A stretch of DNA of 44,914 nucleotides from Flavobacteriales bacterium (GTDB lineage: Bacteria > Bacteroidota > Bacteroidia > Flavobacteriales_F > PHOS-HE28), in NCBI GenBank assembly GCA_017987115.1, contig JAGNUG010000020.1:1-44914 (forward strand), read 5' to 3'. Position 1 is the first letter of the stretch, and each line of letters begins with the position of its first letter. Below, piece after piece: positions 24,418 to 41,889 of the stretch. Position numbers and translations under genes: made by a program. The notes beneath the pieces are model-generated. The model saw nothing but the letters and a program-made list of their open reading frames with translations, did not search any database and was not told where the DNA came from.

Positions 24418-26883
24418 TTAGCGCAGTATGGTCACGTGTCCGGTGTATTCCTTGTTGGCTTCAGGAACGGAAAGTACATAGAAATAGGTGCCGTCCGGAA
24501 CATCGCTTGCACGCCAATTGTTCGTGTAGTTCTCCTTCTCATAGATCTTGTTTCCCCAACGATTGAAGATGGTAAGGCTGTTCTTGTAGTACTGAACGTT
24601 CTCGAACACCAACGCTTCATTCACATTATCGCCGTTCGGGGAGAATACATTCGGGATCTCAATATCCGCAGGAAGGATCCGGAATGAGCCATTGATGGTG
24701 TCCGTACAGCCATCCGCTGCGGTAACGATCAATGTAACCGGGTAAGTTCCAGGAGTCTCATAGAAATTCGTTGTGTTAGGTAAGTTGCTTCCTCCATTGG
24801 CCGGGTCGAAGATCCATTGCCAATCGACGATGTTGGAACCATCTACACTTGAATTATCAGAGAACATGATCGTTGCACCGAACGGTTGTGGAGATGGAAG
24901 ATCCGTCACATAAGCCGCATTGATAGCTGAACCTACAGTAACGATGAACGGTGCGGAAGTTGTAGAACATCCTTCAGTATTGGTGACCGTAACGGAATAA
25001 GATCCTGTTCCAACAGTAATGGTAGGGTCGGTACTGGCGTTGGACCATTGATATGAAGCATAATTCTCTGTAGTGCCCAATACGGCCAGTGCACCTCCGC
25101 AACTGAACCCTGGCCCGGTAATAACAGGGTCAGGACTTGGTGCTCCGTTAACTACGAAGGGCTCGGATGGTAAGGAGCAATCACCCAATGAAATGGTGCA
25201 GATATAGGTATCAGGGCCACCACTGATGTTCGGACCGAAAGCACCATTGCTCCATTCATAGGTATCGTATCCCGCTGGCGCATTGATGAATGCAATGTCA
25301 CCATCACAGACCAATTGATCACCGGTGAGGATGATAGGTCCGGTGATGCCAGGGTTAACCACGATAGTGATCGTAGTATCATAGGTGCAACCGAAATTGT
25401 CAGTGACGGAGAATACATAGTCATGACTACCAACGCCTACTGGAGTTGCCACGCCTGCAAGTGGGTTGTTCGGATCTGAGGATACTCCATTACCTACCCA
25501 GTTGGAGGAGTCCGAAGTTGTTGTTCCCAGCACAGGAGTATAAGTTGTAAGGCTAGGGAATAGGGAGGAGTTGAAGGTAAGTCCCCAGTCGCATATGAAA
25601 CCATTGTCAGAACCCCAAAGGTCCGTTACCGTTAACGTCCACGTTCCATTCAAAAGACAGCCCTCCAATGCATTCATTGGGTTCAGACTTTCATAGGTGC
25701 CTGATGGAAGGGTGCCCCCAGCATTGTCGACCCAAGTCCCATTCGTCGCTGTTGGACTCCAACAGTATGTGTAGCACACGCCCATTGAGTCTGGTAAGCT
25801 GTCGTCATCAATGGGTTCACCTAAAAAGGTGCCCCCTCCATTTTGTTGATGGAACGTAACGCTTTGACCATTAGGGCAAGCTAATTGAATAACAAGATCG
25901 CCAATGAACGAATGCTCCATATCCACGCAAACTGATGGCAGGTCGTTTATATTCGTAAGCGTTTGGCCGGGAGCGAAATTGGTAAATGCTATTGAGGTGT
26001 TGAACGCAACACCTTGGTCATCCGGCAGGAAAAGACCTCCACCTAAGCTGGATTCCGGAAGTCCGGTCCATTGCACGGCAACCGGGTTTGCCAATAAATT
26101 CACGGATTCTCCTTCGCAGATCGTATCACCTGGTAATGTACCAGCGAAAATGGGCGTGGTGCTTACGAGGACCTGTAAGTCCACCAAATTGGTGTTATTG
26201 CAGTTATTATCATCCGTTAATGTCAGTTGTACAACATATTCGCCAGCATTCGGGAATGAATGTGTAACAATTGGCCCTGTAAGGCTGTCCTGGATCCCAT
26301 CATCAAAATTCCAATTATACTCCACCAAAGTGTTCGACCCTGCTGCTATGGATGCCGACCCATCGAATGTGATGACCTCTCCTTGACAAACCAACGCAGG
26401 AATTGCAGTTCCCATGGTAGCCGAAGCAGTAGGTGGTTCGCAAGGAGTTATGCAATTCAATGCTGCTGCAAAAATGCCTTCGCCGGTTTCATTGCTGGTG
26501 AAGGTTATCGTAAGGCAACCGGAAGTATTCGTAAAGCTTGAAGCAATAATGCCTGGATTGTCAGACCCGCTCCATACACCGATCAGCGGGGCACTTGTAT
26601 CTGCACCATCATAGATCGAAAGCTGATCTATTGGTGCACTTCCAGCCGTAGATAGGTTAAATGTGATCCATTGTAAGGAAATACCGGTACCGGTGGTTTG
26701 ATCCGAACATATCGTTATCATTTGTGTTTCGTTCGGCCCATAACCGGAAGCGCCCTCACCACCGCTATCCAATAACGCACCGGTGCATCCGTAAGCCGTT
26801 CCTCCATCCGCAATACTTATTATCTGAGCGTTGGCCGTATAAGCCAAGAGAAAGTATAAAGTCAAGAAACTGAGTATCCGCAT
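24418..26883 (-). CDS. Secreted CUB/PKD/P-domain protein with T9SS type B sorting domain (paralog 1)
   Basis: The 821-residue product has a signal peptide (MRILSFLTLYFLLAYTANAQ). Next come a CUB-like domain (about 22-145, with SIYDGADTSAPLIG), a PKD domain (about 165-240, YNWNFDDGIQDS), a proprotein-convertase P-like domain (about 292-438, VCVDMEHSFIGDLVIQL and LNGTWTLTVTDLW), Ig-like repeats, another PKD domain (VDWQWIFDPANGG) and the type B sorting domain (743-821, IPNVFSPNGDNVNE, IFNRWGNKIYE). The start is the ATG before the signal peptide, not the longer frame to 26967. The downstream half is strongly similar to the tandem gene at 27123-29633. A role in adhesion or in the surface matrix is likely but unproven. 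Confidence 0.9.
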   Translation of the reverse strand: MRILSFLTLYFLLAYTANAQIISIADGGTAYGCTGALLDSGGEGASGYGPNETQMITICSDQTTGTGISLQWITFNLSTAGSAPIDQLSIYDGADTSAPLIGVWSGSDNPGIIASSFTNTSGCLTITFTSNETGEGIFAAALNCITPCEPPTASATMGTAIPALVCQGEVITFDGSASIAAGSNTLVEYNWNFDDGIQDSLTGPIVTHSFPNAGEYVVQLTLTDDNNCNNTNLVDLQVLVSTTPIFAGTLPGDTICEGESVNLLANPVAVQWTGLPESSLGGGLFLPDDQGVAFNTSIAFTNFAPGQTLTNINDLPSVCVDMEHSFIGDLVIQLACPNGQSVTFHQQNGGGTFLGEPIDDDSLPDSMGVCYTYCWSPTATNGTWVDNAGGTLPSGTYESLNPMNALEGCLLNGTWTLTVTDLWGSDNGFICDWGLTFNSSLFPSLTTYTPVLGTTTSDSSNWVGNGVSSDPNNPLAGVATPVGVGSHDYVFSVTDNFGCTYDTTITIVVNPGITGPIILTGDQLVCDGDIAFINAPAGYDTYEWSNGAFGPNISGGPDTYICTISLGDCSLPSEPFVVNGAPSPDPVITGPGFSCGGALAVLGTTENYASYQWSNASTDPTITVGTGSYSVTVTNTEGCSTTSAPFIVTVGSAINAAYVTDLPSPQPFGATIMFSDNSSVDGSNIVDWQWIFDPANGGSNLPNTTNFYETPGTYPVTLIVTAADGCTDTINGSFRILPADIEIPNVFSPNGDNVNEALVFENVQYYKNSLTIFNRWGNKIYEKENYTNNWRASDVPDGTYFYVLSVPEANKEYTGHVTILR

Positions 26884-27085
26884 GGTAATTCTAAAGTAAT
26901 GCTTCGGTGTTAACTGGTCTTTGTCCGTCCGGCCTTTTTCAAAGGCTCGCAAACTTAAGACCTTCACAGCAATAATGATATTGTTAATTCGATCTGTTCG
27001 TGAAGTGCTAGGCAGGAATCCTTCAGATCAGAACAGTCAAATTCGCTCGGTCAATAGCTAGTACTGCCGTCCGTATTGTACGGTG

Positions 27086-27122: not shown

Positions 27123-29633
27123 TCAACGCAATATGGTCACGTGCCCGGTGTATTCCTTGTTGTTCTCGGGCACCTCCAATACGTAAAAATAGGTGCCGTC
27201 AGGTACGTCGCTCGCACGCCAGTTGTTCGTGTAATTCTCTTTCTCGTATACCTTGTTTCCCCAACGATTGAAGATGGTCAGGTTGTTCTTGTAGTATTGG
27301 AGATTCTCGAATACCAGAGCCTCGTTCATATTATCGCCGTTCGGGGTGAATACATTCGGAATGATGATCTCCTGTGGTAGGATCCTGAACGTGCCATTGA
27401 TCGTGTCCATACAACCATCAGCTGCCGTTACGATCAATGTAACAGGATAGGTTCCTGGGTTTTCGTAGAAATTCGTAGTGCTGGTTTGTGTACTACTTCC
27501 GTTAACTGGGTCGAAGATCCACTGCCAATTGACGATCGTGGACCCAACAACACTGGAGTTATCAGTGAAAATGACCGTAGCGCCCAAAGGTTGTGGAGAT
27601 GGGAGGTCCGTCATATACGCGGCATTGATATTTGAACCAACTGTAACGATGAACGGTGCGGATGTAGAAGAGCATCCTTCTGCGTTGGTAACCGTTACGG
27701 AGTAAGAACCGGTTCCTACCGTGATCGAAGGATCATTACTATTGTTGGACCATTGATAGGATGCATAATTCTCCGTGGTGGTCAACACTGCTGGAACGCC
27801 TCCACAATTGAATCCGGGACCAGTTATGATCGGATCCGGACTTGGAGCTCCGGTAACAACGAAGGGCTCGGATGGCAAGGAGCAATCGCCCAATGAAATG
27901 GTGCAGATATAAGTGTCAGGGCCACCACTGATGTTAGGACCGAAGGCTCCATTGCTCCATTCGTAGGTATCGTATCCTGCTGGTGCATTGATGAATGCAA
28001 TATCACCATCACACACCAACTGATCACCTGTGAGGTTGATCGGGCCCGTGATCCCTGGGTTTACTATGAGCGATATCGTGGTGTCATACGTACATCCGAA
28101 ATTGTCAGTAACGGAAAATACATAGTCGAACGTACCAACTGCTGTAGGTGTAGCAGTCGCTACCAATGGGTCCAACGGGTCAAGTACAACACCTGGGCCG
28201 CTCCAATTCGTTGAGTCCACGGTATTCACACCAAGCACTGGAGTGTACGACACAAGCGCTGGGTATAGAGATGGGTTAAAGCCAACGGACCAGGAACAGA
28301 TGAACCCGTCATCTATGCCGATATTATCCACGGCAGTAAAAGTCCAGTTACCATTCAAAGGACACCCGATCAACTGACTAAGCGGCTCAACACTGGTATA
28401 ATCATCCGGTATCAATACGTTCTGTCCTATTTCCACGGTTGACGGTTGTACGTTCGGAGAGATGCCATTGGTCGATGATTCTTCGAAAGTGCCATTTGTT
28501 GCCGTATTAGTCCAGCAATAATTATAACAAGTACCAGGTACTGGAGGTACTGTTTCAGTGTCCAAAGCATCACCAATGAACGTATTCGTTCCGCCTTGGT
28601 CGTGCATGATAACGGTCTGTCCGTTAGGACATGTCAACGAAAGGGTAAGATCACCCATATAACTATGTTCCATGCTCACGCAGATGGCATCCAGATCGCC
28701 TAAGGAGGAGACCGTTGACCCTAGCGCAAAACCATTGAACGTGATCGTGGATGTAAATGGAGTTGCTACAACGTCCGGCAAATAGATCCCTTCGCCGAAA
28801 TCCACATCCGGAATGGCAGACCACGGAGTGGCTGTAACTCCTCCTGTCAGTATTACTGATTCGCCCAAACAGATCACACTGTCCTGCACCATGGCTTGTG
28901 TGAATACCGGTGTAGTGCTTACGAGTACCTGTAGGTCAACGACATTAGTATTCTCACAGGCATTGTCGTCCGTGACCGTAAGTTGAACAACATATTGGCC
29001 CGCCTCAGTGAAAGCATGGGTTACGTTCGGTCCGGACAGACTATCAATGACTCCGTCCGCAAAATCCCAACTGTATTCAGCAATGTTGAATCCAGTTGCA
29101 GCCGTTGATCCTGAACCATCGAAGGTGATCACTTCTCCTTGACATACAAGTGCAGGTACAGCCTCGGACATCGTAGCAACAGCAGTTGGAGGGGCGCATG
29201 GCGTATAGCATTCAAGGGTTGCACTGAATTGACCCACCCCAGCTCCATCACTTGACCATTCGAGTGTGAGGCAACCGGAAGTGTTGAAGAATCCTGCAGA
29301 GACAACGGTCGCTGGACCTGTTCCAGTGAATGTGCCGATGATCGGTCCGGTATTGTCCATTCCATCGTAGATGATCAGTGCGTCCGCATCAGCACCGGTC
29401 GGCAGATTGAATGAGTTGAAATTCAGCCGCACATGCGTGCCGGTGGTCTGGTCCGCGCAAATGGTAATTGTAAAATCCTCATTATTTCCATAACCAAACC
29501 CTCCATCCCCGCCACTATCATATAGGGCACCAGCGCATCCGTACGCAAAGCCTCCATCAGAGATCAGTACTGTTTGTGCGTTCAGGGAGATCGTCGTTAG
29601 CAGAATTGCTGCAATTGAGCAGAGTTTGCGCAT
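27123..29633 (-). CDS. Secreted CUB/PKD/P-domain protein with T9SS type B sorting domain (paralog 2)
   Basis: The 836-residue product has the same architecture as the neighbour at 24418-26883: signal peptide (MRKLCSIAAILLTTISLNAQ), CUB-like domain (ALIIYDGMDNTGPIIG), PKD (YSWDFADGVIDS), P-like domain (ICVSMEHSYMGDLTLSL, LNGNWTFTAVDNIG), Ig-like repeats, PKD and a type B domain (IPNVFTPNGDNMNE, IFNRWGNKVYE). N-terminal halves differ clearly, but a 60-residue block (27855-28034 here, 25150-25329 there) is identical in protein sequence. The ATG at 29633 precedes the signal peptide. The pair is a tandem duplication, downstream of a sigma/anti-sigma-like pair in the same direction. Confidence 0.9.
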   Translation of the reverse strand: MRKLCSIAAILLTTISLNAQTVLISDGGFAYGCAGALYDSGGDGGFGYGNNEDFTITICADQTTGTHVRLNFNSFNLPTGADADALIIYDGMDNTGPIIGTFTGTGPATVVSAGFFNTSGCLTLEWSSDGAGVGQFSATLECYTPCAPPTAVATMSEAVPALVCQGEVITFDGSGSTAATGFNIAEYSWDFADGVIDSLSGPNVTHAFTEAGQYVVQLTVTDDNACENTNVVDLQVLVSTTPVFTQAMVQDSVICLGESVILTGGVTATPWSAIPDVDFGEGIYLPDVVATPFTSTITFNGFALGSTVSSLGDLDAICVSMEHSYMGDLTLSLTCPNGQTVIMHDQGGTNTFIGDALDTETVPPVPGTCYNYCWTNTATNGTFEESSTNGISPNVQPSTVEIGQNVLIPDDYTSVEPLSQLIGCPLNGNWTFTAVDNIGIDDGFICSWSVGFNPSLYPALVSYTPVLGVNTVDSTNWSGPGVVLDPLDPLVATATPTAVGTFDYVFSVTDNFGCTYDTTISLIVNPGITGPINLTGDQLVCDGDIAFINAPAGYDTYEWSNGAFGPNISGGPDTYICTISLGDCSLPSEPFVVTGAPSPDPIITGPGFNCGGVPAVLTTTENYASYQWSNNSNDPSITVGTGSYSVTVTNAEGCSSTSAPFIVTVGSNINAAYMTDLPSPQPLGATVIFTDNSSVVGSTIVNWQWIFDPVNGSSTQTSTTNFYENPGTYPVTLIVTAADGCMDTINGTFRILPQEIIIPNVFTPNGDNMNEALVFENLQYYKNNLTIFNRWGNKVYEKENYTNNWRASDVPDGTYFYVLEVPENNKEYTGHVTILR

Positions 29634-29742
29634 GGTCGGTCTGTTAATAGTGCGTCCTAATGTAATAGGTCTCATCAGAAATACGACCGGCAGTGTTCCT
29701 TGTCCGATAGTATGTTCGTTCAACCATTCAATACTGATCCAA

Positions 29743-30822
29743 TCAATTCAATCTGTTCCTATTGAGCCAAACCATCGTTGATCCGGTTTTTGAACGGCCA
29801 TCCTTGGTAATTGCCTCAACTGCGACCAAGTAGTATCCGTCCGAACAGTTATCGCCATTCCATACAGATCCGTTATCGGTACTAAAAACCTGAACATTCT
29901 CTTTAACGGAGAAGATCCGGACCATGACCTTTTCGCAACCTTCTGCAATCACTTCGAATGTGTCGTTGACGTTATCCCCATTCGGTGTAAAGGTGTTCGG
30001 AATGAACAACTCCGGTAAAGGTATAATGGGTTTTTCTTCTGTCAATGGTTGGTTAAGGCTTGGTTCGTCCATAACGTCTGTGGTCGCCGCTGATGGGCTC
30101 TGCTCCGGCTTAGTATTTTCCAGTTCCCCTTTAGCGGCTTCTGCTGCTTTGGTGGTCAGCTCATCGATGATCTGCGCAACGATGATGGGGCCATACACAG
30201 GTTTAGGATCCTCAGCTTGGGTCTTCCCTGTTTTCTCTTCATTCGTTTCTGGAGCACCCTGTACAAATCCATTCGATGGTTCTATCACGACCGGGTCAGG
30301 AGTGGCCTGCTTTGGAACTGTAGAAGGTAAAGGAGCTGCGCTTGCAGTTGTAGAGGAGTTCGGCACCACCGGTTTAACGACAATGCCCTGCTGATCAGTT
30401 GGTTCTGGGTTCGCTATAGAGGCGCCAATTTTCGATGGTATGGTCGTGGTCTCCACAGCTGGAAGACGTACTTCCTCGGAATCCTGAGGGACTTCGGCTA
30501 ATTCTACCGTTGTGTTGTTGGTCAGGAACAGCGCGGTTCCACCAATTACCAATGCCGTAACACCTGCTGCTGCCCAGCCCCATACGCTGCTGATGCTTGT
30601 CGCGGCCGGGTGGCCTAATTGACTACTGATATTGGACCAAACACTAGGATCAACAGATGCTTCATGACCCTGGAATTTTTCCTGGAACAGTTTGTTCACC
30701 GGGTCTGCCACTGGTGCACCCATTGCCAGTTTGGACTGGATGGCATCCCATGCACCAGGATCCACAGGCGATTCATGCCCTTGGAACCGCTCGCGGAACA
30801 GATCGTTCATTTCAAGACTCAT
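29743..30822 (-). CDS. Anti-sigma-like membrane protein with T9SS type B-like C-terminal domain
   Basis: This 359-residue protein has no N-terminal signal peptide. The cytoplasmic part has a duplicated motif, LFRERFQGHESPVDPGAW (8-25) and LFQEKFQGHEASVDPSVW (45-62), 37 residues apart. One membrane helix follows (about 81-100, WGWAAAGVTALVIGGTALFL), then a Pro/Thr/Glu-rich linker (about 105-270), then a gliding-motility/type B-like domain (274-356) starting IPNTFTPNGDNVNDTFEVI; the usual NRWG is replaced by SVKENV. It overlaps the end of the ECF sigma gene by 11 bp, or starts 1 bp after it if the ATG at 30810 is used. Context suggests an anti-sigma or sensor role; this is inference. Confidence 0.75.
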   Translation of the reverse strand: MSLEMNDLFRERFQGHESPVDPGAWDAIQSKLAMGAPVADPVNKLFQEKFQGHEASVDPSVWSNISSQLGHPAATSISSVWGWAAAGVTALVIGGTALFLTNNTTVELAEVPQDSEEVRLPAVETTTIPSKIGASIANPEPTDQQGIVVKPVVPNSSTTASAAPLPSTVPKQATPDPVVIEPSNGFVQGAPETNEEKTGKTQAEDPKPVYGPIIVAQIIDELTTKAAEAAKGELENTKPEQSPSAATTDVMDEPSLNQPLTEEKPIIPLPELFIPNTFTPNGDNVNDTFEVIAEGCEKVMVRIFSVKENVQVFSTDNGSVWNGDNCSDGYYLVAVEAITKDGRSKTGSTMVWLNRNRLN

Positions 30823-31369
30823 TGCCGTAATGATAGTGTTCAGCTACCTCCTTGGGTAGCATTTTTCGCAGGTAGGCCCGCGCTTTCATGAATTGCGATT
30901 TTGATGTATTCTCTGAGATGCCGAGCATTTCAGCGATATCGCGGTGCGGATACCCTTCAATTGCGAACAGGTTGAACACCGTACGATAACCAGTAGGTAA
31001 GTTCTGGATCAACCCGATTAACTCATCTGCCGACATGCCACTTAAAACATGCTCATCCTCCTGATGAAGGTATTCTGCTTCCGTAAGATCGATACTATGG
31101 TCGTACGGTTTGTTACGGCGGATATTATCCAATGCTGTGTTCACCATGGTGCGCGCAATCCATCCACCTAAAGGCCCATCGCCCCGGAAGTGGTCGATCT
31201 TCTGGAACACCTTAACAAAACCATCCTGAAGGATGTCCTGTGCTTGGTCCTTATTGTGGGCATACCGCATGCAAATACTCATCATTTTTCGCGCAAACTG
31301 CTGATAAAGAGCTTTTTGCGCTGCTGGATCGCCATGCGTGCAACCGTGCACAAGTTGTTCATCTGTCAT
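30812..31369 (-). CDS. RNA polymerase sigma factor, ECF type
   Basis: The 185-residue product has sigma-70 region 2 (QDILQDGFVKVFQKIDHFRG, IARTMVNTALDNIRR) and region 4 (LPTGYRTVFNLFAIEGYPHR, DIAEMLGISENTSKSQFMKA), with the short linker typical of ECF sigma factors. The ATG at 31369 (MTDEQLVHGCTHGD) is chosen; a longer frame to 31456 has no support. The stop lies within the first codons of the following membrane-protein gene, so the two are translationally coupled, as sigma/anti-sigma pairs often are. Possible targets include the T9SS cargo genes just downstream. Confidence 0.9.
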   Translation of the reverse strand: MTDEQLVHGCTHGDPAAQKALYQQFARKMMSICMRYAHNKDQAQDILQDGFVKVFQKIDHFRGDGPLGGWIARTMVNTALDNIRRNKPYDHSIDLTEAEYLHQEDEHVLSGMSADELIGLIQNLPTGYRTVFNLFAIEGYPHRDIAEMLGISENTSKSQFMKARAYLRKMLPKEVAEHYHYGNES

Positions 31370-31556
31370 GGCATTCCCGGTAGTGATGGGAATTAGCGTG
31401 GAAAAGTTGCCTGAGCTCCGCATTGATGGGGCTTTTTTGCAAGATACGACGTGCATTGGTTCAGGAGCACGGAAAATTTGACCATCCGATCATACTTGAC
31501 TGATCAGTTACCGTGCAGTAATAGCATCAGGGATCAGGTTCTCGCCTACCTTAAGC

Positions 31557-40045: not shown

Positions 40046-40531
40046 GTGACCCTCTCCGACTATAATGCAGCTGTTGATGCCCATGCTGATGGTATCTATC
40101 GCTTTGCGGTGAAGCATCTTCGCGATCAGGAACAAGCGAAGGATGTGGTACAAGAAAGCTTCGCTAGGCTTTGGATGAAGGTGGATCAAGTGGATGCCAA
40201 TAAGGTGAAAAGTTATTTGTTCACCACAGCACACCATGCTATTGTGGATGAAGTGAGAAAAGGAACACGAAGCACTCGAATGGAAGAACACCATGAACGC
40301 ATGCAGCATGTAAGCCAATCGCAGCCGGACCTGAAGGCCGTGCTTGATGCTGCGCTGGCTACATTGCCGCCTATACAGCGCAGTGTGGTGCTCTTGCGCG
40401 ACTTGGAAGGTTATAGTTATGAAGAGATCGCTGAGTTAGTGGACCTGAACCTGGCACAGGTGAAGGTGTATATCTATCGAGGCCGTACGGCACTGAAGGA
40501 ATACATCGGCCATTTGGAAACAGTATTGTGA
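40046..40531 (+). CDS. RNA polymerase sigma factor, ECF type (second)
   Basis: The 161-residue product has region 2 (YRFAVKHLRDQEQAKDVVQE, SFARLWMKVDQVDANKVKSY) and region 4 (LPPIQRSVVLLRDLEGYSYE, EIAELVDLNLAQVKVYIYRG). The only suitable start is GTG at 40046; a nearby upstream ATG frame stops at once. The stop TGA shares bases with the GTG start of the next gene (GTGA, 4-bp overlap), a strong sign of translational coupling to its membrane partner. Upstream TAACTTTA (39997-40004) is a weak promoter candidate. Confidence 0.9.
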   Translation: MTLSDYNAAVDAHADGIYRFAVKHLRDQEQAKDVVQESFARLWMKVDQVDANKVKSYLFTTAHHAIVDEVRKGTRSTRMEEHHERMQHVSQSQPDLKAVLDAALATLPPIQRSVVLLRDLEGYSYEEIAELVDLNLAQVKVYIYRGRTALKEYIGHLETVL

Positions 40532-41889
40532 GCATACGCATTGACCATACCAACTACGAGGCCTACCTGCTTGATCGTTTGGAAGGAAACCTTTCACCCG
40601 CTCAAGAGCGTGAATTGGAAGCTTTTCTATTGATGAATCCTCATTTGGTGCCAGATGATGAAGAACTGCCTTCGTTGATGGTAATGGAAGCATCACTTTC
40701 CAAAGTGGAAAAGGAGGCGCTAAAGCGCGCACTTCCGCCAGTTGGAATGCCTGGCGAAGGCCCGTTAGGTGATATGCTGATCGCGCGATTGGAAGGAGAT
40801 CTTACACCGGCGCAGATCAATGCATTGGAGGCTTATCTAGTTGAACACCCTGAACATCAGAGTGCGGAACGGATCTATGCGTTGACCAAGTTGGTGCCTG
40901 AAGCGATGGGCTTTGCCGAAAAGGAATCACTGGTTCGGGCATTGCCTCCTGTGGGAATGCCATCGCTGTATACGGCAGAAGACTTCTTGATCGCACGAAT
41001 TGAAGGAGATCTGAACGCACAGCAAGAAGAAGCAATAGTAAAGTTGATCGAGCAGGACCACTCTTTGGCGCGCTCGTGGGCGTTGTTGCGACATACTCGT
41101 GTACAGCCTGACCCAATGGCGTTCCCTCACAAGGATGCATTGAAGAAAGGAGGGAAGGTGATCGCGATCGGAGCCCCCCGTTGGCAGATGGCGCTGGCTG
41201 TTGCAGCTAGTATAGCCGTATTGCTCGGTGTTGGTTTCTGGATGCTTCGTGAGGACCCTCAACGCATTCCGCAAGTGGCCGAGAAAGTTGAACCAGCGAA
41301 CAACCAGAACAAGACCACAACGACGAACGACCCTTTATCACCTGACAAGGAAACTGGTTACCCGGAGCAGCAGGTCGCTGAGAATGGAGTTGACCTTGAT
41401 GATAAGAACGTGGCTGCGTTAGAAGGCCCGATCACATCACAACAGAAAAGAGAAAAAGATTCGCCTGTGCAGCAGGAGAACGATGTGCCTATTGAGCGAC
41501 CCATACAACGCGATGAACTTCTGCAATTGGCTGAGCAAAAGGTCGTAGTACCTCCAGTAAAAATTGATCGTGCGGTACCAGAAAATGTAGAGGTTGCCGC
41601 AGTGCCCGCGTACACGGAGTCCTTGGCCGAAGCTACTGCGCCTGCTAAAAATACGAAGACGATATCAGTTCGTGAATTATTCGCATCTACCGTTCGTGAG
41701 CGTGTTCTGGATCAACCCGAAGCGACCACAGAACCTCTAGGAATGAACGATGCTGTTGCGGCTGTCAATAAAGGTTTGAAAGTGATCGCTGGTGACAAAG
41801 CCGGGCTGATGATCGATAATTCCGGTGGTCGCCGACGCACGTTCGACCTGCGCCTAGGGCGTAACCTTTCCATTACCGCTAAGCGGTAA
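40528..41889 (+). CDS. Anti-sigma-like membrane protein with three 70-residue repeats
   Basis: This 453-residue protein has three N-terminal repeats with an exact 70-residue period: YEAYLLDRLEGNLSPAQERE, GDMLIARLEGDLTPAQINAL and EDFLIARIEGDLNAQQEEAI (LEG or IEG at 18-20, 88-90 and 158-160). The segments ending EKEALKRALPPVGMP (61-75) and EKESLVRALPPVGMP (131-145) also repeat. A membrane helix (about 219-239) follows, then a long Gln/Glu/Pro-rich periplasmic region to the C-terminus. The repeats resemble the short anti-sigma helical motif of Bacteroidota (LxGxLxPxxxxxxExxL) and lie on the cytoplasmic side. Start is GTG, overlapping the sigma gene by 4 bp. Confidence 0.8.
   Translation: MSIRIDHTNYEAYLLDRLEGNLSPAQERELEAFLLMNPHLVPDDEELPSLMVMEASLSKVEKEALKRALPPVGMPGEGPLGDMLIARLEGDLTPAQINALEAYLVEHPEHQSAERIYALTKLVPEAMGFAEKESLVRALPPVGMPSLYTAEDFLIARIEGDLNAQQEEAIVKLIEQDHSLARSWALLRHTRVQPDPMAFPHKDALKKGGKVIAIGAPRWQMALAVAASIAVLLGVGFWMLREDPQRIPQVAEKVEPANNQNKTTTTNDPLSPDKETGYPEQQVAENGVDLDDKNVAALEGPITSQQKREKDSPVQQENDVPIERPIQRDELLQLAEQKVVVPPVKIDRAVPENVEVAAVPAYTESLAEATAPAKNTKTISVRELFASTVRERVLDQPEATTEPLGMNDAVAAVNKGLKVIAGDKAGLMIDNSGGRRRTFDLRLGRNLSITAKR

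Follow-up and report, generated by a model that had tools for sequence, protein, structure and literature searches.

Why should a membrane protein encoded directly behind an ECF sigma factor gene end in a domain that resembles the sorting domain of type B cargo of the type IX secretion system (T9SS)? To our knowledge, the matching of T9SS cargo synthesis to export is still a largely open matter, with the known circuit (PorA-PorXY-SigP) coming from one species. The protein in question is encoded by a locus at positions 29743-31369 of a 44,914-nt stretch of DNA, analyzed here as a whole and referred to as the window, from a Flavobacteriales bacterium (GCA_017987115.1, contig JAGNUG010000020.1).

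The ECF sigma factor gene is carried on the minus strand (30812..31369; 185 amino acids from its ATG, with a longer open reading frame start at 31456), and its product matched both Sigma70_r2 (PF04542, 59 bits) and Sigma70_r4_2 (PF08281, 54 bits) in Pfam. Its partner follows on the same strand (29743..30822; 359 amino acids), either overlapping the sigma gene by 11 bp (ATG at 30822) or beginning at an alternative ATG at 30810, 1 bp past the sigma stop, much as an earlier note on this DNA had described the junction. The N terminus of the partner is made up of two “LFxExFxGHExxVDPxxW” helix-hairpin repeats, the first LFxExFxGHE...W hairpin at 30724..30810 on the minus strand (residues 5-33, with AlphaFold2 helices at 2-12 and 22-33; putatively sigma binding) and the second at 30613..30696 on the minus strand (residues 43-70, with helices at 41-50 and 59-68), the latter being the copy common to single-motif relatives. 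These are followed, likewise on the minus strand, by the sole hydrophobic span, a transmembrane segment at 30523..30594 (residues ~77-100, hydropathy peak at 82-100); by a disordered periplasmic linker rich in Pro, Thr, Glu, and Ala at 30019..30522 (residues 101-268, mostly with pLDDT below 60); and by the T9SS type B-like C-terminal domain (CTD) at 29761..30012 (residues 271-354). The AlphaFold2 model, built from 47 sequences, placed hairpins at 2-33 and 41-68 and a beta-sandwich with a pLDDT of 92-98 at ~270-355, with low confidence in between. No signal peptide was found at the N terminus, where the hairpin module precedes the only span. The single span without a cleavable signal peptide, the resulting anchorage in the inner membrane, and the long low-complexity linker were thus all as the earlier note had read them; the duplicated cytoplasmic motif, which it had also listed, is present here as two repeats, but the copy number in relatives is 1, 2, or 3, and the duplication is neither essential nor defining for the family.

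Mean identity within the genus was 52% for the hairpins and 46% for the CTD versus 18% for the linker. The distance from the span to the CTD was 130-276 residues in 61 relatives, and the linker is long enough to span the periplasm to the outer membrane. Taken together as a pair, the two products are an ECF sigma factor and its candidate membrane-anchored anti-sigma factor. Pfam searches of the partner returned no match to a known anti-sigma family, the N-terminal module has no Cys residues from which to form an Hx3Cx2C zinc motif, and a comparison of the module with the sequences of the PDB returned no match. The class I anti-sigma domain family is known to include zinc-free members (PMC7406223); in addition, class I anti-sigma domains adjoin only 6% of the ECF factors of Bacteroidetes (PMC7406223), which leads one to expect anti-sigma factors of other classes there. 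A second ECF sigma gene in the window (40046-41889, plus strand) overlaps the gene of a 453-amino-acid protein that is spanned near its center by a membrane segment and has no Pfam match; this is probably a different type of sigma/anti-sigma pair.

The pairing itself was conserved. An orthologue of the same architecture was identified in 40 of 44 same-genus genomes (38 whole and 2 split by contig ends), and a sigma orthologue, 70-87% identical, lay directly upstream on the same strand in all 38 whole loci; with one further locus (G023), for which adjacency was read from coordinates, this amounts to 39 of 39 testable relatives. For the class at large, 60 sigma genes were taken from outside the genus, those closest to the one in the window, and the downstream gene was read in each: among the 56 assignable partners, 25 had a CHU_C-like end, 25 appeared by look to be barrel tipped, and 6 were short. 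A profile search placed the full-length, N-to-C CHU_C-tipped type in at least 43 of 295 class genomes and at least 13 family codes, a lower bound with six candidates scored per genome. The neighborhood check called for by the earlier note, namely that this domain combination recur next to an ECF sigma gene, therefore came out positive both within the genus and across family-level groups of the class, and the pairing of the sigma factor with a CHU_C-tipped partner is more than chance. Partner type also clustered on a tree of 64 sigma factors (5 changes of the CHU_C label versus 21.7 in shuffles), and the CHU_C-tipped type may have had a single origin on that tree.

A scan of the genome contigs with the anti-sigma protein returned cargo-type CTDs only. 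On contig C122 of the same genome (L092:1602-3536), there is a second, distantly related pair, an ECF sigma factor with a motif-span-PKD-PKD-CHU_C protein, followed by a gene for a CUB-type secreted protein resembling the window cargo. Tandem sigma pairs were observed at two loci of one family (L262 and L280, family code f15), where the genes behind the CHU_C pair are those of a further ECF sigma factor and a 249- to 259-amino-acid protein and then an excinuclease-like gene. Co-occurrence with the T9SS was set aside as a powerless test, SprA being found in 286 of the 295 class genomes; all 43 genomes with full-length CHU_C-tipped matches are among those 286. In Flavobacterium psychrophilum, the SM6 regulon counts an ECF/anti-sigma pair along with T9SS genes (PMC9723704); a link to it was left unused, as no CHU_C-tipped partner was found beside the six sigma genes identified in one Flavobacterium and one Maribacter genome.

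The earlier note knew of no anti-sigma factor with such a layout, a claim that does not stand in that general form. Dma proteins are dual membrane-spanning anti-sigma factors whose sigma factors, Das, belong to ECF21 of Bacteroides thetaiotaomicron (PMC13088901, citing Pardue et al. 2024 PNAS). They adjoin the ECF21 sigma gene and combine an N-terminal anti-sigma domain, a membrane helix, a disordered tether, and a C-terminal barrel (PMC13088901). Experimental precedent is available for Dma1/Das1 and Dma2/Das2 in B. thetaiotaomicron, where deletion of dma2 works via its sigma factor and neighboring genes are among the most induced (PMC13088901). The window protein resembles Dma in its place beside an ECF sigma gene, its one span, its long disordered tether, its occurrence in Bacteroidota, a putative N-terminal anti-sigma module, and a tip that would be directed to the outer membrane. 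It differs in the tip: in contrast to the covalent beta-barrel of Dma, it ends in a CHU_C beta-sandwich of ~85 residues, preceded in some lineages by PKD-like domains, and it could at most get to the outer membrane via binding to a barrel.

The barrel-tipped partners sampled here (Pfam OMP_b-brl_2 in 8 of 10 candidates tested) look to be of the Dma type, an assignment made by architecture. Their N-terminal modules aligned with those of the CHU_C-tipped partners at an hhalign probability of 98.8 (E 6.8e-17, 39 columns), and it is from this homology to the N termini of barrel-tipped, Dma-like proteins that the hairpin module is presumed to be the cytoplasmic sigma-binding part. By the same comparison, the window protein would be a Dma-like anti-sigma factor with a T9SS cargo domain in place of the barrel. 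At two loci (L353 in genome G083, in which no SprA was found, and L356 in genome G122), an ECF sigma gene is followed by a short motif-and-span partner and then by a separate secreted barrel-like protein, apparently a split version of the Dma plan; on this basis, the tip looks exchangeable. This suggests that the tip of the two-membrane anti-sigma factor is swappable among a fused barrel, apparently a separate barrel gene, and a T9SS domain. The literature covered here on anti-sigma factors with T9SS/type IX secretion and on CHU_C described no anti-sigma factor with a T9SS CTD.

How far the tip is a type B domain was addressed by sequence and by structure. The last ~90 residues matched CHU_C (PF13585) at 31.1 bits (Pfam gathering score of 27), whereas the match to TIGR04131 reached 23.2 bits, under the NCBIfam cut-off of 35. 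The partner CTD was among the lowest scoring of the 44 CHU_C matches in the host genome, as expected of a real but divergent domain. In a Foldseek search of the whole PDB, the best match of the predicted CTD was 8glk_D (E 4e-4), the CTD of the substrate NucA in a T9SS translocon complex, and realignment gave a Z score of 8.1 with 2.1 Å over 72 residues at 25% identity (residues 271-354). Further T9SS substrate CTDs matched at Z 7.4-7.5, but a Z of ~8 was also reached by unrelated Ig-like domains, and the fold thus supports but cannot alone prove a T9SS function. The structure prediction proposed earlier, then, turned up a beta-sandwich whose best match in the PDB is a T9SS CTD, while the type B assignment itself held only in part: the CHU_C score over the Pfam cut-off and the T9SS CTD fold speak for it, and the TIGR04131 score and a missing Arg-Trp pair speak against it.

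That pair emerged from a column comparison of 74 nonredundant anti-sigma CTDs aligned with 50 other type B CTDs. The Arg of the NRWG motif was present in 6 of the 74 versus 47 of the 50, and the Trp in none of the 74 versus 42 of the 50; the window CTD likewise lacks both. By comparison, the TPNGDG block kept its Pro and Asp without exception in both sets and its Asn-Asp almost without exception, the W.G block was likewise invariant in both, and the G.Y block was nearly so; a terminal Lys or Arg closed 55 of 69 anti-sigma CTDs and 49 of 59 cargo CTDs. Each of five conserved motifs in the SprB type B CTD is required for secretion (PMC12618676), and one of the five probably includes NRWG. The uniform loss of Arg-Trp, with other signature residues retained, supports the reading of the domain as a decoy, and the combination of a membrane anchor with the lack of a signal peptide suggests that the CTD is probably not exported. 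In many lineages, a PKD-like domain is found ahead of CHU_C in the partner. A stand-alone CTD of 136 amino acids, predicted to be secreted, is encoded by a gene that has a CHU_C anti-sigma gene on one side and type B cargo on the other (L282, 98-508, reverse complement, genome G231; also L205:1083-1493); it resembles the anti-sigma CTDs, is likewise without RWG, and might act in soluble form as a competitor or as a signal.

Two type B cargo paralogues lie directly downstream in the window, in agreement with the earlier note: cargo 1 (27123..29633, minus strand; open reading frame start at 29723), with a signal peptide, CUB/P-domain/PKD, and CHU_C at 80 bits, and its paralogue cargo 2 (24418..26967, minus strand), with CHU_C at 79 bits. 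A search of the minus strand from the anti-sigma gene to the cargo gave no terminator-like site, a weak negative. Across loci, the next codirectional gene encoded a type B cargo in 24 of 40 CHU_C pairs versus 0 of 20 barrel-tipped pairs (Fisher P of 2e-6 on raw counts of loci that are not independent), or, counted by family codes, in 8 of 13 versus 0 of 13; this contrast speaks for a link to the T9SS. The adjacency was complete within the genus (13 of 13) and partial outside it (11 of 27), where the immediate next gene was something other than cargo in over half of the CHU_C pairs sampled; restricted to supported independent contrasts, the comparison has too little power to reach significance. 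Cargo bodies differed among families and even among subclades of the genus, which argues that type B cargo identity, rather than one old neighbor gene, is kept. A special likeness of the anti-sigma CTD to those of its neighboring cargo was looked for and rejected, as none was seen. At four loci (L293, L302, L304, and L354), the gene behind a barrel-tipped pair encodes a secreted protein whose T9SS tail is type A-like.

Upstream of the sigma gene, a predicted ECF-type promoter was identified at 31383..31411 on the minus strand (GGCAAC-N16-CCATCAC), its -10 element deviating at two positions from the genus consensus, GGCAAC-N16-GCATCAT. GGCAAC-N16-GCATCA(T/C) or a near match stood directly 5' of the sigma gene in 35 of the 39 genus loci, always at the same spacing, as would suit an ECF sigma factor that drives its own expression. 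A genome-wide search with the strict form GGCAAC-N16-GCATCA recovered the sigma promoter itself and otherwise mostly coding-like matches, and any claim of a regulon is therefore limited to the sigma factor, the anti-sigma factor, and possibly the cargo operon.

From the features read directly in sequence or model (the pairing, the architecture, the homology to barrel-tipped partners, the CTD fold, the loss of Arg-Trp, the cargo adjacency, and the promoter-like element), we infer anti-sigma activity, docking, competition or force, sigma release, and a sign of response for which free and saturated shuttles are both possible activators. Type B CTDs bind PorP/SprF outer-membrane barrels (PMC9143113, PMC12618676). 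Given this binding, the 14 PorP/SprF genes in the host genome (none was found on the 44,914-nt contig), and the length of the linker, we propose that the tether would let the periplasmic CTD reach the outer membrane, where it may dock on the partner of type B CTDs, or vie with real cargo for it, that partner being possibly a PorP/SprF-family shuttle barrel or the SprA translocon. With a membrane anchor and an incomplete signal, the CTD would not be exportable; a change in occupancy of the docking partner, or a pull on the docked CTD, would relieve the hold on the sigma factor. Once released, the sigma factor would act at the GGCAAC-N16-GCATCAT promoter to drive transcription of the operon to which it belongs, in many lineages together with the downstream type B cargo gene, the outcome being a feedback between cargo supply and export capacity. 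CHU_C-tipped proteins would thereby gain the two-membrane reach of Dma by binding a barrel rather than by being one. That the anchored, probably nonsecretable mimic reads the availability of type B shuttles or translocons and so controls the sigma factor is a reading whose chances we consider about even. The fuller version, a checkpoint on type B export in which the nonexportable mimic gauges free shuttle barrels or translocons and couples cargo transcription to capacity in much of Bacteroidota, we put forward more tentatively and hold to be less likely than not.

The main rival to a T9SS-reading mimic is a repurposed Ig-like sensor or tether that makes no contact with the T9SS, has only ancestry in common with cargo, and binds a ligand of the outer membrane, peptidoglycan, or cell surface, in parallel to the supposed role of the Dma barrel tip. 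We give it a substantial if minority probability. The exchangeable tip of barrel-tipped and short family members, the absence of the NRWG motif that is near universal in cargo, the PKD-like domain added in front in many lineages, and the commonness of the fold all suit such a sensor; the other type B signature residues are, however, retained as strictly as in cargo, and cargo lies next door far more often than at barrel-tipped pairs. On both counts, the data lean against a generic periplasmic ligand sensor. At the other extreme, the CTD might be a working secretion signal, by which the T9SS pulls or exports the ectodomain after proteolysis and secretion consumes the anti-sigma factor in the manner of FlgM. 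Most anti-sigma CTDs do end in Lys/Arg as cargo CTDs do, and the other signature blocks are retained, yet a cleavable signal peptide is absent and the Arg-Trp pair has gone from what is probably one of the five motifs needed in SprB (PMC12618676), which makes this reading improbable.

Least probable of all, to the point of being very unlikely, is that the partner, anchored in the inner membrane, has a structural or gliding function and that its place beside a sigma gene is incidental. We found no biochemical test of a CHU_C-tipped member, and the N-terminal module is without a match among the sequences of solved structures, both of which leave room for it; against it stand the constant overlap or close abutment with the ECF gene in the genus and many families, the way in which partner type follows sigma phylogeny, and the homology of the module to the barrel-tipped partners of the Dma plan.

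The flagellar FlgM/FliA checkpoint is a familiar case in which a soluble anti-sigma factor, FlgM, is consumed by flagellar export. Common to it and the T9SS-reading mimic proposed here, in principle only and with no homology claimed, is an anti-sigma factor recognizable by the secretion machine on which it reports; unlike FlgM, which is soluble and exported, the window protein is membrane anchored and probably not exportable. Compared with T9SS type B cargo (PMC12618676, PMC9143113), the window protein has the same domain family and fold and all signature residues but Arg-Trp; unlike cargo, it is without a signal peptide, anchored in the inner membrane, under the TIGR04131 cut-off, and missing NRWG. 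In the Porphyromonas gingivalis circuit PorA-PorXY-SigP, the CTD-bearing PorA acts upstream of the ECF factor SigP, which controls T9SS genes (PMC7712824). A CTD-bearing protein and an ECF sigma factor are thus shared, but PorA has a signal peptide, is located at the cell surface, and acts via a two-component system, and SigP is bound by PorX rather than by an anti-sigma factor of the CHU_C-tipped type (PMC7712824).

The family described here is a compact, widely conserved candidate circuit in which the putative sensor carries the cargo's own address tag, and it extends the Dma idea to an anti-sigma tip that may be a swappable module. Among the proteins that carry the annotation “T9SS type B sorting domain-containing,” some may accordingly be regulators rather than cargo, and through the CTD of its anti-sigma factor the cell may sense the state of its own secretion machine.
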